From NCBI GenBank assembly GCA_039794565.1, contig JAUQVX010000014.1:1-64000 (forward strand): a stretch of 64,000 nt of DNA. Direction: 5' to 3'. The DNA is from Gloeomargarita sp. SRBZ-1_bins_9. GTDB lineage: Bacteria; Cyanobacteriota; Cyanobacteriia; Gloeomargaritales; Gloeomargaritaceae. Of this stretch, positions 17,322-46,556 are shown in pieces. Below the pieces are notes generated by a model, which did no database searches, was not told the DNA's origin, and saw nothing but the letters and a program-made list of their open reading frames with translations. The translations under genes and the position numbers were made by a program. Position 1 is the stretch's first letter; each line of letters begins with the position of its first letter.

Positions 17322-18656
17322 TCACAGGGTGTAACAGAAATCGGCCACCAGCATCCCCGGCGCCAGGGTTCCCCCCAAACGGCGGTGTTCGTAGGTGTCG
17401 GTGGCGGGCACCAGCTCCCGGGTTTCCGTCAAGGCCAGCAACCCTTCGCCCCAAAAGTGATAGAGACTCTCGTCAAACCGGAGATTCTCGATGGGCGCCA
17501 CCCATTCGCCCCCCTCCACCCAAAAACAGGCATAGCGGGTCATGCCAGTGATGCGCCCCGTGGCCTGGTCGCTCCAGTTCAGGTAGTGCAAATTCGACAC
17601 ATACAACCCCTGCCCCAGCGCCGTCAGGATTTGGTCCGTCGCCAAGGTACCCGGTTGCACCTCCGGCGCCCGCAGATATTCCCCCGCTGCAGCGCCATTG
17701 GCGGTTAGGCCGTACTCCTTAGCTGTGCGCTGGCTGACCAACGTCTGCACCAATTCCCCCTCCTGCACCACCTCCAACTGCTCCGGCGCCAGGTCCCCCT
17801 GATCCGTAAACCGGGGTACGGGAATGGCCTGGAAGTTTTCCCGCAGCGAGAAGGCCCGAGCCAAGCGGCGTTCCCCTCGGCGCAGGGGCAAAAGGGCGCT
17901 GGTTCCCTGGCGCATGGCCGCCTCGCTCACCCCACCCCAGGACAACATACCCACCAATTCCGCCACCGCCGCTGGCGCCAAATAGGTCCGATAGCGACCG
18001 GGGGGCAAAATTTTGGCCGGCTGGTTCAATAGCTCCAGTTGCTCCCGTAGGGCCTGGATTTGACGGGCAAAAGCCCCAGCGTTCCACCGCCGGTCGCTGT
18101 AATAACCCTTGACCGCCCGCTGCTGGGCATTGAACAGGGAGTAATCCAGGGTCAACGTCTCCGCCACAAACCAATGGGATTGCCCGGCGCTGTCGGCATA
18201 GGCTCGCACCTGGGGTCCGGCGGCATAGAGACCCGTCATATCTACCCCCGCCACCACCTCCACTACCTGGGCTACCACCTCGGTCGCCGGCGGTATTTGC
18301 CCGACCTGGACCGTGTGGCTCCGGGCTGACCCCACTGGTAACACCAGAAAGGGATCCGGGGGCAACGTGGGCACCTCCCGCTGAAGGTCCTCCACTGCCT
18401 GCTGCACTTGCGCCAAATCCAGCTCAACCACCCCCGTTACGGGCAAGCGGCGATAACTCCAGCGGTCCTCCCCCATCAAGGTCACGGTCAACTCCGCTTT
18501 CTCCACCCTGCCCCCCTGACGCACCTTCCCCTGGTTAAACCGCACAAAATCGCTAAATTCGGCCACCAACGCCGCTCGCCAGGGGTCCTTCAAGGTCGTG
18601 AGGTACTGCCCACAGGCCTGCCAACTGGCCGATATCCCGGTGATCCAGTCCGCCAT
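17322..18656 (-). CDS. TldD/PmbA-family protein (putative metallopeptidase)
   Basis: Protein of 444 residues of the TldD/PmbA superfamily. TldD and PmbA (TldE) form a heterodimeric zinc protease that trims peptides; cyanobacteria have an additional divergent group to which this appears to belong. Features include WFVAETLTLDYSLF, a central LAPAAVAELVGMLSWGGVSEAA, and a C-terminal ENLRFDESLYHFW, the usual place of the family's IENG motif. The canonical HExxxH zinc motif of TldD is not seen, so it may be the TldE-like, non-catalytic type. The start is ATG 18656 after GGAG; an in-frame upstream start would add a glycine run. The gene is divergent from the allophycocyanin cassette. Confidence 0.78.
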   Translation of the reverse strand: MADWITGISASWQACGQYLTTLKDPWRAALVAEFSDFVRFNQGKVRQGGRVEKAELTVTLMGEDRWSYRRLPVTGVVELDLAQVQQAVEDLQREVPTLPPDPFLVLPVGSARSHTVQVGQIPPATEVVAQVVEVVAGVDMTGLYAAGPQVRAYADSAGQSHWFVAETLTLDYSLFNAQQRAVKGYYSDRRWNAGAFARQIQALREQLELLNQPAKILPPGRYRTYLAPAAVAELVGMLSWGGVSEAAMRQGTSALLPLRRGERRLARAFSLRENFQAIPVPRFTDQGDLAPEQLEVVQEGELVQTLVSQRTAKEYGLTANGAAAGEYLRAPEVQPGTLATDQILTALGQGLYVSNLHYLNWSDQATGRITGMTRYACFWVEGGEWVAPIENLRFDESLYHFWGEGLLALTETRELVPATDTYEHRRLGGTLAPGMLVADFCYTL

Positions 18657-18839
18657 GATAACTCCACCCCCACCTCCACCCATTATGCCACCCCCAGGCC
18701 GTCACACATTTTGCAGTACAAAAAAGCACTTTTTTATTGCACATTTATTTCAAATCACAACTTTTTCTTCATAATATATGTCGCCACTTTAGGTCCCACT
18801 TTATCTTATTAGCTGTAGTTCACTATCTACCATAAAACT
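18657..18839. promoter_or_regulatory. AT-rich promoter region of the apcD4-apcB3-isiX cassette
   Basis: About 180 bases between the TldD-like gene and apcD4. From about 18715 the composition drops sharply to AT-rich, unlike its surroundings. A possible sigma-70 promoter is TTTCAA at 18748-18753 and ATAATA at 18771-18776, with a 17-base spacer. No Shine-Dalgarno sequence precedes the apcD4 ATG. The assignment is visual only. Confidence 0.4.
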
Positions 18840-19313
18840 ATGAGTATCGTTGCCCAAGTGATTGCCCAATCGGATGCGGCTGACCGTTTCCTCAGCAGCG
18901 CCGAATTGAACAAATTAGAAGAGTTTTTTAGTAAGGGGGCCTTACGAATTCAGGTGGCCCAAAAATTAGCGGCCAACGAGCGCAAGATAGTGGAAGAGGG
19001 CAGCCGGCGTTTTTGGGCCAAATGTCCGAATACCCCGAGCAACCGGGGCGACGCCCAAAAAACTGCCCTATGCCAGCGGGATCAGGCCTGGTATCTGCGG
19101 CTGATCAGCTACTGTGTCCTAGCGGGGAATGACAAACCCCTAGAGGATATCGGCTTAAATGGTATGCGGGAGATGTACACTTCCCTGGGGGTGCCGCTGA
19201 ACAATTTGCGTATCGCCATGGCCAGTCTCAAGGAGGTCACAGCGAGTTTGTTATCACCGGAGGAAATGGCCCTGGTCGCCCCTTATTTTGACCGTTTAAT
19301 CCGCGCTTTTTAA
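18840..19313 (+). CDS. apcD4: Allophycocyanin alpha-type subunit, ApcD4-like
   Basis: Phycobiliprotein of 157 residues. The bilin-binding Cys lies in ALCQRDQAWYLRL (C78), and ISYCVLAGNDKPLEDIGLNGMREMY is the typical allophycocyanin-alpha region. It is clearly diverged from the ordinary core ApcA and from ApcD, with a short, unusual segment before the bilin Cys (CPNTPSNRGDAQK). Together with the following apcB3 and isiX genes it matches the low-light photoacclimation cassette known from thermophilic Synechococcus, where ApcD4 and ApcB3 form far-red-absorbing assemblies. The ApcD4 name rests on this context; a tree would be needed to separate it from other ApcD paralogues. Confidence 0.82.
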   Translation: MSIVAQVIAQSDAADRFLSSAELNKLEEFFSKGALRIQVAQKLAANERKIVEEGSRRFWAKCPNTPSNRGDAQKTALCQRDQAWYLRLISYCVLAGNDKPLEDIGLNGMREMYTSLGVPLNNLRIAMASLKEVTASLLSPEEMALVAPYFDRLIRAF

Positions 19314-19354
19314 GGTGACGTTGCCCAGATATTAGCCATGACGGAGGAGGCTCT

Positions 19355-19840
19355 ATGCAAGACACTATTACGGCCTTGATCAATCCCGCCGATGCCCAGG
19401 GACAATATTTGAGTGAGGCGGCCCTGAATCAACTCCGGCAATACTTTGAACGGGGGATGATGCGGGTTAAAGCGGCTGCCACCATCAGCGCCACCGCCAG
19501 CCAGATCATCAGCCGCACAGTGGCCAAAAGTTTGCTCTACGGAGACATCACCCTACCGGGGGGGAACATGTATCCGACCCGGCGCTATGCCGCCTGTCTG
19601 CGGGATTTGCAATACTTTTTGCGCTACGCCACCTATGCCATGTTGGCCGCCGACCCCTCGATTTTAGACGAGCGGGTGCTCAATGGTCTCAAGGACACCT
19701 ACCAGGCGCTGGGGGTGCCGATTGACCGGGTGATCCAGGCCCTCAACGCCATGAAGGAGGTGTTGAACGAGACGGTGGGGGCGGAAGCCGGTCAGGAATT
19801 GGCGGGATACCTCGACCACATCATTGCCGGTCTGGCCTAG
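19355..19840 (+). CDS. apcB3: Allophycocyanin beta-type subunit, ApcB3-like
   Basis: Phycobiliprotein of 161 residues. The chromophore Cys is in [20 protein letters not shown]; the Asn that is usually methylated lies just before it in [10 protein letters not shown]. Length and motifs are those of ApcB. It starts 41 bases after the alpha-type gene with GGAGG before the ATG, and would pair with that subunit as a heterodimer. The isiX-like gene starts 37 bases after its stop, so the three are very probably one transcript. It is not the housekeeping apcB, which normally follows apcA. Confidence 0.85.
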
Positions 19841-19877
19841 ACCCCATGGGGGGTGTTTTTCCTTGGCAGGTGGAGTT

Positions 19878-21260
19878 ATGAACAGGAGACAACCGTATCC
19901 CTGGTGGGCTGGGAATGCTCGGTTTACGGACCTTTCCAATACGTTCATCGTGGCCCATGTGGCCCAGGCGGCGTTGATCGTGTTTTGGGTAGGGGTTATG
20001 ACCCTGTTTGAACTGGCCCGCTATAACCCGGCCCGACCCATGTACGAACAGGGGTTGATCCTTTTGCCCCACCTAGCGACCTTGGGGTTGGGAGTGGGGG
20101 CGGGGGGACGGGTGGTGAATACCTTTCCCTATATGGCCGTGGCTGCCTTTCATCTGGTGAGCGCGGGGGTGCTGGCCTGGGGTGCCTGGTTCCATTTCAC
20201 GAAACTGCCGCCGAGTTTGGAAATGCTGGGGCCGCCGGCGGGCAAGTTTCATTTCCGCTGGAATGACGAGCGGCAGTTGGGTCTTATCCTGGGCCATCAC
20301 CTGCTGGTGTTGGGGCTAGGGGCTTTGCTGCTGGTGGTCAAGGCAACCGTCGGTGGTGGGTTATATGACGCTACCTTGGGGCAAGTGCGCACCATCCAGC
20401 CCACCTTGGACTGGGCCACCATCTGGGGCTACCGCACCCACCTATTCGACGTCAACAACCTGGAGGACCTGGTGGGGGGGCACGTGTACGTGGCGGTATT
20501 GTTGCTGCTAGGGGGGACTTGGCATATCCTGGTGCCGCCCTTTGGCTGGGTCAAACGCCGTTTTCTGTTTTCCGCCGATGGGATTTTGAGCTACTCCCTG
20601 TTCGGGATTGCCCTGGCGGGATTTGCGGCGTCCTATTACTGCGGGTTCAATACCTTAGCCTATCCTGAGGTGTTTTACGGCCCGGCCCTGAAGCTACGGT
20701 CGGCGCTGCTACCGGCCTATTACGACCCCAGCGGTGCCCCGGTCTATTCCGCGCGGGTGTGGTTGGCCAACGCCCATTTCTACCTGGCCTTCTTTTTCCT
20801 GCAGGGGGGGCTGTGGCACTTCCAGCGGGCAATGGGTCTAGACGTCACCCAGATATTCCGGGCCTGGCGTGGGGAGCCACAGGCGGTCTATCAACCCCAG
20901 TTCACCGGCAACGCTCCCCCCTTGCCGGAGGTGGTTTACGCACCGCGTTTCGTACCCCTACCGGCCTTGACGCCACTTGCCGCCGATGCCCTTTATGAGC
21001 CGGTGCAAGGAGCCGTGGCCCCTTCCTTAGCTACCCGTAATGGTGTTGCCTATACCCTCTACCAAGCGGTTTACCGACGTCAGACCTGGATTTTCTATGA
21101 ACCGGCCCGGGCAAATGTGTCTCTCCGGCGACTCTGGGGATTCCTCTACGCACCACCAACGCCGGTGACCAAAACCGCTATCCCTCGTCCGCCGGAGGAG
21201 TCTGCTCCTCCCTCTTCACCGCCATCGGTGGCAACCGACCCAGCAGCGCCGACGGCCTAG
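19878..21260 (+). CDS. isiX: CP43/IsiA-family chlorophyll-binding antenna protein, IsiX-like, with C-terminal extension
   Basis: Membrane chlorophyll a antenna of 460 residues in the IsiA/Pcb/CP43 family. Six helices can be placed at about 20-48, 60-105, 132-160, 192-222, 230-262 and 290-318, with chlorophyll-ligand histidines ([47 protein letters not shown]). IsiA proteins end soon after helix six (about 340 residues). Here roughly 130 further residues follow: a tyrosine- and proline-rich segment, one hydrophobic-aromatic stretch ([12 protein letters not shown]), then a Pro/Ser/Ala-rich tail. The extension shows no PsaL-like membrane helices that I can see. The start is ATG 19878 after GGTGGAG. 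Last gene of the cassette, followed by a likely terminator. Confidence 0.85.
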
Positions 21261-21271
21261 GGGGATAACCC

Positions 21272-21313
21272 CAGGAACCAGCCGGACAGGGAGCCAGCGC
21301 TTCCTGTTTTTTT
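21272..21313 (+). terminator. Probable intrinsic terminator of the apcD4-apcB3-isiX operon
   Basis: CAGGAA at 21272-21277 pairs with TTCCTG at 21301-21306 and is followed by seven T residues (21307-21313). The stem is only six base pairs with a long loop, so this is a moderate call. It sits between the convergent isiX and sigA genes, 12 bases after the isiX stop. Confidence 0.5.
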
Positions 21314-21319
21314 CTGGAC

Positions 21320-22444
21320 CTAGCGGATGTATTCCTTGAGGATGCTGTTGCGGTTGGGATGACGGAGTTTGCGCAAGGCTTTGGCCTCGATTTGCCGGAT
21401 GCGTTCGCGGGTCACATTGAAGGTTTGACCGATTTCCTCCAGGGTTTTCATCCGCCCATCATCTAGCCCATAGCGCAGGCGCAAGACATCCCGTTCCCGC
21501 GGGCTGAGGGTGTTCAAAACTGTTTCCAAATCCTCCCGCAGCAGGTGTTTGGCCACCTGGTCTTCGGGGGTTTCCCCATCCGCCTCGATGAAATCCCCCA
21601 GGCGTGAGTCTTCTTCCTTGCCGATGGGGGTTTCGAGGGAAATAGGCAACTGGGCCGACTTGGCAATAAAACGTAGCTTTTCAATGGTAATTTCCATACG
21701 GGTAGCAATTTCTTCTTCCGTAGGTTTACGGCCCATTTCCTGGGACAGGATTTTGGTGGTTTTCTTGATGCGGGAAATGGTTTCGTACAGGTGGACCGGC
21801 AAACGGATGGTGCGGGACTGGTCGGCAATGGCCCGGGTAATGGCCTGGCGAATCCACCAGGTGGCGTAGGTGGAGAATTTATACCCCTTCTCGTGGTCAA
21901 ATTTTTCCGCCGCTCGAATCAACCCCAGGCTGCCCTCTTGGATCAAATCCTGGAACGAGAGGCCCCGGTTCATATACTTTTTGGCAATGGAGACCACCAG
22001 GCGCAAATTGGACTGCACCATCTTTTCTTTGGCGCGATAGCCCTGCCGTAGTTGCCGCCGGAATTCCTCCACCGGTAGTCCCACCAACTCGGCCCATTGT
22101 TCCTCCGTGGGCGGTTGCCCCTGTCGCCGGGTCCATTCATCCCGCTTGCGTTCAAACTCCAGCAGGACAGAAATTTGCCGGGCCAGTTCGATTTCCTCAT
22201 CCGCCCGCAACAAACGAATCCGACCTATCTCCTGCAAATAGAGGCGAATCGAGTCTTCGGTGTAGGGATTTTTCTTACTTGCTGACCGCTTGCGTCCCGA
22301 CCGTGGAGCCGCCTCTTCCTCCTCTAGATCCTGGTCGAGGTCGTCCAGTTCCAAATTACTCAGGTCATCCCCCACGGTTTCGTCTTCTAAGTCATCGAGG
22401 GATGGGTCAGCAAGGGTCGGCAGGACATCAGGCACCTGAGTCAT
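21320..22444 (-). CDS. sigA: Principal RNA polymerase sigma factor SigA/RpoD (group 1)
   Basis: Sigma-70 factor of 374 residues. An acidic N-terminus (region 1.1-like, about 1-55) precedes region 1.2 ([12 protein letters not shown]), region 2 with [29 protein letters not shown] and [14 protein letters not shown], region 3, and region 4 with the helix-turn-helix [21 protein letters not shown]. All four regions are complete, as expected for the essential housekeeping factor of cyanobacteria. The start is ATG 22444 (MTQVPDV) with AAGGAG upstream; an earlier in-frame start adds 14 residues unlike the family. Confidence 0.95.
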
Positions 22445-22764
22445 CGCGTCGGGTACTCCTTGGACTACAATACTAAACGTAAACAAATGCTCATGTTAGC
22501 AGGGAAAGGAAAGAATGGTAGCAGGTGGTCGGTAACCTTCCCCGCCTTGAGCAATCCTATTGTAATCCTGATAACAACCAAAGTTGCCTAGTCTCGCTCC
22601 CTCCCTCAGCCACTTAACCCTGAAAAAGGGTCACAAAACCGGTAATTGTTATATAACTTTACATTTACGGTGAGGAAACTCTATCGAGCTGCCGGTTGGT
22701 GTGGCGGAAATTGACCAGGAGGCGGGTATATCAGATAGTAGTAGCGGCCTAAGGGTAAGGTGGA
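22445..22764. promoter_or_regulatory. Divergent intergenic region between sigA and cysQ
   Basis: 320 bases with no gene that I can support. It contains a small hairpin, ACCCT at 22617-22621 and AGGGT at 22627-22631 with a GAAAA loop, and an AT-rich element TTATATAA at 22649-22656. A TACAAT hexamer on the minus strand (22559-22564) could be a sigA -10 element. No T-run follows the hairpin, so it is not a classical terminator. Confidence 0.4.

Positions 22765-43623: not shown

Positions 43624-46556
<2,933 letters not shown>

Follow-up and report, generated by a model that had tools for sequence, protein, structure and literature searches.

A probable low-light photoacclimation operon, apcD4-apcB3-isiX, in Gloeomargarita, with invariant tyrosines in the IsiX tail and a conserved upstream leader

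Low-light photoacclimation (LoLiP), FRL-AP nanotubes and the chlorophyll-binding protein IsiX have already been described (PMC4477158; PMC10038336; PMC12214013). Nanotubes of ApcD4 and ApcB3 absorb at 709 nm in Synechococcus A1463, and the FRL-AP of relatives co-purifies with IsiX. The A1463 tube, PDB entry 8DDY, is reported to have seven protomers per 720 degrees and 72.6 Å (PMC10038336). In that account, attachment of the tube to photosystem I is a proposal and the IsiX extension is proposed to thread the tube as a ruler; attachment to the photosystem and control of tube length are both named as needing work (PMC10038336). The regulation and prevalence of LoLiP are described as open in PMC12214013, while horizontal transfer has been thought possible for hot-spring strains (PMC4477158).

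The window analysed here is a 64,000-nucleotide stretch from a Gloeomargarita draft genome of 2,224,153 bases in 21 contigs. We infer, with a probability of about 0.8, that three of its genes form a LoLiP operon encoding an IsiX-anchored far-red tube antenna. The cassette and its surroundings are as follows, with the isiX start taken as the ATG at 19878 (the open reading frame list begins isiX at TTG 19824).

17322 to 18683, minus strand: PmbA/TldD-type metallopeptidase gene (PF19289), divergent upstream neighbour, outside the cassette
18840 to 19313, plus strand: apcD4, far-red allophycocyanin alpha subunit, 157 residues
19355 to 19840, plus strand: apcB3, allophycocyanin beta subunit, 161 residues
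19841 to 19854, plus strand: weak hairpin and T-run between apcB3 and isiX, possible attenuator
19878 to 21260, plus strand: isiX, IsiA-type chlorophyll-binding protein with a C-terminal tail, 460 residues from the ATG
21284 to 21309, plus strand: intrinsic terminator, an 11-bp stem then a T-run, 3' of isiX
21320 to 22486, minus strand: gene that we take to be sigma-factor-like, convergent downstream neighbour, outside the cassette

The three genes lie adjacent on one strand, as in the LoLiP cassette, and the open reading frame coordinates bear out the initial annotation, which had described them in a row with gaps of 41 bases (apcD4 to apcB3) and 37 bases (apcB3 to isiX). Gene order is identical in all seven genomes of the genus that were examined, this one included, so the arrangement is not a matter of chance. 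The probable terminator that had been placed after isiX was also recovered; its 11-bp stem and T-run lie in a region with a fold z-score of -3.26, in a scan that returned four terminator-like sites against an average of 3.9 in shuffles, i.e., no excess. Because the count of such sites is at shuffle level, the evidence for the hairpin at 19841-19854 is weak, and it is listed as a possible attenuator. A gene of the PmbA/TldD type stands upstream in five of the seven genus cassettes (in G389 the contig ends there and G388 has a different gene), and a homologue of the sigma-factor-like gene stands downstream in three of the seven. Elsewhere in the window, two phycobilisome-domain stretches (43956-44564) fall within one 897-residue open frame that is probably apcE.

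Both phycobiliprotein subunits match the PF00502 profile (ApcD4, 177.5 bits; ApcB3, 179.1 bits), and their best PDB matches are the two chains of 8DDY: chain A for ApcD4 at 285 bits (next chain, 172 bits) and chain B for ApcB3 at 271 bits (next chain, 227 bits). Scores against the NCBIfam models of the ordinary subunits fall below the cut-offs, at 135.9 bits for ApcD4 against ApcA (cut-off 270) and 202 bits for ApcB3 against ApcB (cut-off 228.15). Published marks of FRL-AP are alpha Ser11, Phe58, Lys74 and Cys78 and beta Thr4, Asn71, Pro74 and Cys81 (PMC10038336; PMC11614940), of which alpha Ser11 and beta Thr4 have been tied to helical assembly (PMC10038336); alpha Cys62 and Cys92 have been discussed for Halomicronema hongdechloris (PMC12279586). 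Residues S11, F58, C62, K74, C78 and C92 are all present in ApcD4, as are T4, N71, P74 and C81 in ApcB3, and the alpha Cys78 and beta CLRDLQYF on which the initial annotation had relied are both found in the sequences. Alpha residue 71 is Asp here versus Asn in the type protein.

Phylogeny places both subunits accordingly. A maximum-likelihood tree of 66 rows (32 ApcD4, 32 outgroup rows picked from 182 alpha-type frames and the two other alpha subunits of the genome) gathers the ApcD4 rows into one clade (100/99) with this alpha subunit inside, with presumed FaRLiP ApcDs as its sister group and ordinary ApcA/ApcD-type rows outside. In the corresponding ApcB3 tree (maximum-likelihood, 41 rows), 33 rows including this beta subunit make up a single clade (100/99) that excludes both the ordinary ApcB of this genome and presumed FaRLiP ApcB2; outgroup labels in both trees derive from identity and gene neighbourhood. 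On sequence grounds, the alpha and beta subunits are ApcD4 and ApcB3 of the known LoLiP kind. The earlier suggestion that they differ from ordinary ApcA, ApcB and ApcD is thus upheld by the tree check it called for, and the reading of the locus as a LoLiP cassette draws support from the 8DDY matches, the two clades, the marker residues and the IsiA fold of the third protein.

The third protein, IsiX, carries beyond its chlorophyll-binding core a long C-terminal tail.

20868 to 21257, plus strand: IsiX tail, residues 331-460, with tyrosines at 338, 354, 373, 395, 399, 407 and 424

Residues 349-460 have a pLDDT below 50 in the AlphaFold2 model, and the 130-residue tail, in keeping with the extension of roughly 100-130 residues that marks IsiX in a LoLiP cassette, is predicted to be disordered. 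It has no match in the PDB up to an E-value of 10, and a search of 20 members against Pfam placed none in a family. An alignment was made of 34 IsiX proteins (of the genus, of Thermostichus-like genomes and of other cyanobacteria), 25 of which were kept at below 90% identity; SynAce01 and M65_K2018_010 (isiX in two frames), three mini-IsiX proteins and the G477 remnant were omitted from the counts. Tyr338, Tyr354, Tyr373, Tyr395 and Tyr407 are invariant, in 25/25 non-redundant and 34/34 overall, while Tyr399 is found in 23 and Tyr424 in 21 of the 25. The tail around them is variable, with a mean commonest-residue fraction of 0.43 over its columns versus 0.74 in the core, and the remaining tail columns at 0.9 or above (339, 394 and 406) each adjoin a conserved tyrosine. 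Conservation is higher in columns where the window tail has a tyrosine than in the rest of its columns (Mann-Whitney p 6e-5). The full-length tail is under purifying selection in all ten pairs compared, with dN/dS of 0.14-0.32 (binomial p at most 0.036; core, 0.04-0.27), the pairs sharing genomes and hence being non-independent. YxP was set aside as a tail motif; it fits the genus and is without enrichment in many other IsiX. A second motif, hY[QE], reaches p of 0.001 or less in 20/20 tails, values that are descriptive only because the motif was picked after viewing the data; column conservation is the stronger evidence.

Tail and ApcD4 are distributed together. A profile of the tail finds five of 386 phylum genomes, and the same five carry an ApcD4 of at least 70% identity. 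Among 291 genomes of the order that includes G070, a set overlapping the first, ApcD4 is found at an E-value of 1e-73 or better in 18 (next best, 5.9e-62), all of them among the 19 genomes with the tail; only the top first-look candidates were scored per genome, so that misses are possible in both counts. In the nineteenth, G477 (L203), the tail occurs in a 122-residue open frame that is missing the core, and ApcD4 was sought there with no match at an E-value of 1e-50. Together with the invariance of the five tyrosines, this almost perfect co-occurrence suggests that the tail may tether the tube at several points.

A chain that is disordered, varies except at short conserved sites and is found with ApcD4 has the look expected of a multivalent tether, whose tyrosines could dock on protomers. 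In such a mechanism, phycocyanobilin would be bound by both ApcD4 and ApcB3, which would assemble into helical nanotubes of far-red-absorbing allophycocyanin; the tube would be anchored by IsiX, located in the membrane next to photosystem I. Its disordered tail would be the tether, with the conserved tyrosines binding successive phycobiliprotein protomers, each tail site docking in one of a series of like pockets spaced along the tube. Seven such tyrosines are present in the window tail and the published tube has seven protomers per 720 degrees, an equality that may be coincidental. CsoS2 and EPYC1 are repeat scaffolds to which the tail can be likened. By that analogy, the tail may clamp ApcD4-ApcB3 protomers and so nucleate and limit the nanotube at photosystem I, and the cassette with its leader may be a mobile far-red module core to the genus; we advance this combined proposal tentatively, at somewhat less than even odds. 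Against a tether stand three genomes in which IsiX no longer has its chlorophyll core, and one tail remnant without ApcD4.

For the tether part alone, a competing reading is that the tyrosines reflect shared ancestry or a modification site and not a protomer scaffold. This has a real but minority chance of being correct, and is favoured by a tail that has neither a Pfam family (0/20) nor a PDB match; it sits less well with tyrosines that stay invariant while the tail varies (0.43 versus 0.74 in the core) and with a tail omega of 0.14-0.32.

Several isiX loci depart from the full-length form. In G070, G555 and G543, all of one genus, the first ~28 residues of IsiX run directly into the tyrosine tail. 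These mini-IsiX genes (L176:7621-8142; L191; L088:11407-11940, the same protein as L195) adjoin apcD4-apcB3; their frames are open, the six-helix chlorophyll core is lost, and they differ from one another by whole codons. The G543 form is common to Pleurocapsales LEGE 10410. Their tail omega is ~0.5 (p 0.098 and 0.12), so that constraint is not significant, and the closest pair differs by 0 synonymous and 5 nonsynonymous changes; mini-IsiX was consequently set aside as proof of tail function. The isiX of SynAce01 (Synechococcus sp.; L094:11182-12701) has a reading frame broken in the assembly with apcD4 and apcB3 intact alongside, and that of M65_K2018_010 (L089:3778-5251) is likewise split over two frames.

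IsiX as a whole scores 390.8 bits against TIGR03041 (cut-off 335). Its AlphaFold2 model (mean pLDDT 68.9; 22 sequences in the alignment) has six long helices, and Foldseek matches it best to the IsiA chains in PSI-IsiA supercomplexes, consistent with the six-helix CP43/IsiA protein first proposed for this frame. Over the matched parts, the core shares 59% of its residues with the IsiA of this genome and 54% with the CP43 encoded there. That IsiA, encoded by a separate isiA elsewhere in the genome, lacks such a tail, since it ends five residues past the matched core, against the 130 residues of the IsiX tail. In a tree of 40 rows, for which a long-branch warning was raised, 34 IsiX form one clade (99/99) apart from four IsiA and two CP43. 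A match to the IsrR antisense RNA (RF01419; 62.8 bits, window 20259-20433, minus strand) opposite isiX was not taken as a sign of such an RNA. That model also reaches 153 bits on psbC and 98-116 bits on five isiA genes, so the score on isiX is explained by coding homology; the model contains hardly any base pairs, several of which are non-standard at isiX.

These features bear on what the antenna serves. It is unlikely that the LoLiP genes supply photosystem II or the phycobilisome with a red terminal emitter in place of IsiX-bound tubes at photosystem I. The latter model is itself a proposal (PMC10038336), which leaves this alternative some room; yet the IsiX core is nearer to the IsiA of PSI-IsiA than to PSII CP43 or Pcb, the tube-linked Ser11 and Thr4 are present, and tail and ApcD4 co-occur. 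Far less probable is that IsiX is an ordinary iron-stress antenna, or a general accessory one, with apcD4-apcB3 as incidental neighbours: an identity of 59% with the IsiA of this genome across the part they share would fit, but a separate tail-less isiA exists in the same genome, IsiX and IsiA form separate clades, and among the genomes searched the tail occurs only with ApcD4, barring one remnant.

The initial annotation had judged far-red psa and psb paralogues absent from the window, and the statement holds across the draft genome. PF00223 has two matches, an adjacent psaA and psaB forming one pair, and PF00124 has two, which we take to be psbA and psbD, one of each; no far-red paralogue of psaA/psaB or psbA/psbD was found across the draft. 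With psbA and psbD each single there is no ChlF-type paralogue, and with a single psaA/psaB pair besides there is no FaRLiP photosystem set, for which reason FaRLiP membership was rejected. The sole psbA found lies at G000:C2:274061-274960. Although the tree makes presumed FaRLiP ApcDs the sister group of ApcD4 and some strains own both systems (PMC4477158), the idea that the pair belongs to a FaRLiP (chlorophyll f) response with its remainder elsewhere in the genome retains next to no probability given just two PF00124 and two PF00223 matches and no ChlF-type paralogue.

No photoreceptor gene is linked to this cassette, its neighbours being the PmbA/TldD-type and sigma-factor-like genes. Genes were listed around 22 cassettes, and Pfam scans of eight large neighbour frames returned just two GAF-domain kinases, a PAS/GAF histidine kinase after the G070 cassette on the same strand and one by that of SM2_3_1 on the other strand. 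Linkage to LcyA, the photoreceptor of the type cluster, was not counted as required because clusters with a dissimilar photoreceptor or none have been described (PMC12214013). The genome encodes bilin-type GAF domains at other loci. One 1417-residue open frame has five GAF domains (G000:C10:30271-32802), each with DPCF and CH signatures, which we take to be those of cyanobacteriochromes. This five-GAF protein is a candidate light sensor acting in trans.

Upstream of apcD4, two stretches of DNA are conserved.

18701 to 18720, plus strand: distal conserved block GTCACACATTTTGCAGTACA, aligned in six genus leaders
18735 to 18839, plus strand: conserved leader, with candidate -35 TTTCAA (18748-18753), a 16-nt spacer and candidate -10 CATAAT (18770-18775)

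The leader, ~100 bases 5' of apcD4, is conserved as DNA in the six genus cassettes whose leader is complete, and in the seventh as far as the sequence reaches. A 10-leader alignment with the genus extends it to three Thermostichus-like cassettes and, more weakly, to Spirulina; by eye, the other 17 of 28 leaders are without it. Leader identity is 0.60-0.81 versus 0.26-0.57 at apcD4 fourfold sites in 9/9 pairs compared (Fisher p at most 0.005), bearing in mind that alignment alone raises identity, shuffled leaders averaging 0.44-0.48 (20 shuffles per pair). Identity between the window leader and that of Spirulina (0.60) is not above its shuffle maximum of 0.61, and that with Th394 (0.66) is barely above its maximum of 0.64. 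At up to three mismatches, the leader core occurs once in the genome and in 3/386 phylum genomes, always before the cassette; a backward control matched one genome.

A consensus scan of the region returned no sigma-70 promoter; the -35 placed in the leader is weak, and RNAalifold predicts 0 pairs in leader RNA. An HLR1/RpaB site was sought in ten 220-base leaders and rejected, the best match of 11-13 of 16 being equalled by 36-168 of 200 shuffles. Since HLR1 sites would explain low-light activation, their failure to exceed chance counts against the LoLiP reading, as do alpha Asp71 and the lack of an adjoining LcyA. The leader is the putative promoter of the cassette. Because it is more conserved than fourfold sites and shared with Thermostichus-like genomes and, weakly, with Spirulina, the cassette probably spreads together with this promoter. 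Expression would then be driven from a leader that travels with the genes, with no dedicated photoreceptor linked to them.

The cassette occurs in 7/7 genomes of the genus (Gloeomargaritales) versus 3/6 of a genus, that of G177, G393 and G394, which we take to be Thermostichus-like. Within the order of G177, an ApcD4 at 72-80% identity is encoded by four of nine genomes, three among the six of that genus and SM2_3_1 of another genus of the same family; the ApcD4 of G394 scores 317 bits against 8DDY. Trees of ApcD4 and ApcB3 join Gloeomargaritales to the Thermostichus-like rows (99/95 and 99/94), SM2_3_1 falling elsewhere, whereas that of IsiX joins Thermostichus-like to Spirulina (90/85). With the IsiX tree in conflict, direct transfer between Gloeomargaritales and the Thermostichus-like genus was not retained. 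As far as sequences go, the distribution fits horizontal transfer of genes plus leader.

Titles and abstracts retrieved for Gloeomargarita with allophycocyanin, or with far-red and phycobilisome, do not concern this cassette, an earlier mention being possible. The available sections of a study of G. lithophora phycobiliproteins (PMC13022049) do not mention ApcB3 or IsiX, and those of PMC10038336 do not mention a repeated motif in the IsiX extension, the word "motif" being absent from its main text. Both the invariant tyrosines of the tail and the shared, conserved leader thus apparently add to the published accounts of LoLiP, and they offer defined residues and bases for mutation. With the cassette present in all seven genus genomes, this antenna is placed in an order reported to stand nearest to the chloroplast (PMC13022049).

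The ApcD2, ApcD3 and ApcD5 proteins and ApcB2 of FaRLiP are far-red allophycocyanins as here, with Cys62 and Cys78 in most (PMC12279586), but FaRLiP ApcD and ApcB2 fall in a separate clade and are partnered with a chlorophyll f photosystem set absent here. IsiA shares the six-helix core at 59% identity, and the genome's own IsiA is without the 130-residue tail and located elsewhere. LoLiP-like clusters of Halomicronema hongdechloris and Chlorogloeopsis fritschii have the same three genes. The former, as here, has no photoreceptor nearby (PMC12279586), and the latter, unlike here, has isiX on the opposite strand (PMC6424891); both strains are described as possessing FaRLiP as well, unlike this draft genome. 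The type LoLiP cluster has a linked LcyA, and no LcyA-type photoreceptor is linked here. In other respects Thermostichus LoLiP (Synechococcus A1463 and PE A4/A14) is a close counterpart: apcD4, apcB3 and isiX stand together in both, the subunits are of the 8DDY type, the IsiX tail is given as 127 residues in A1463 (PMC10038336) versus 130 here, and three Thermostichus-like cassettes have their leader in common with this one.
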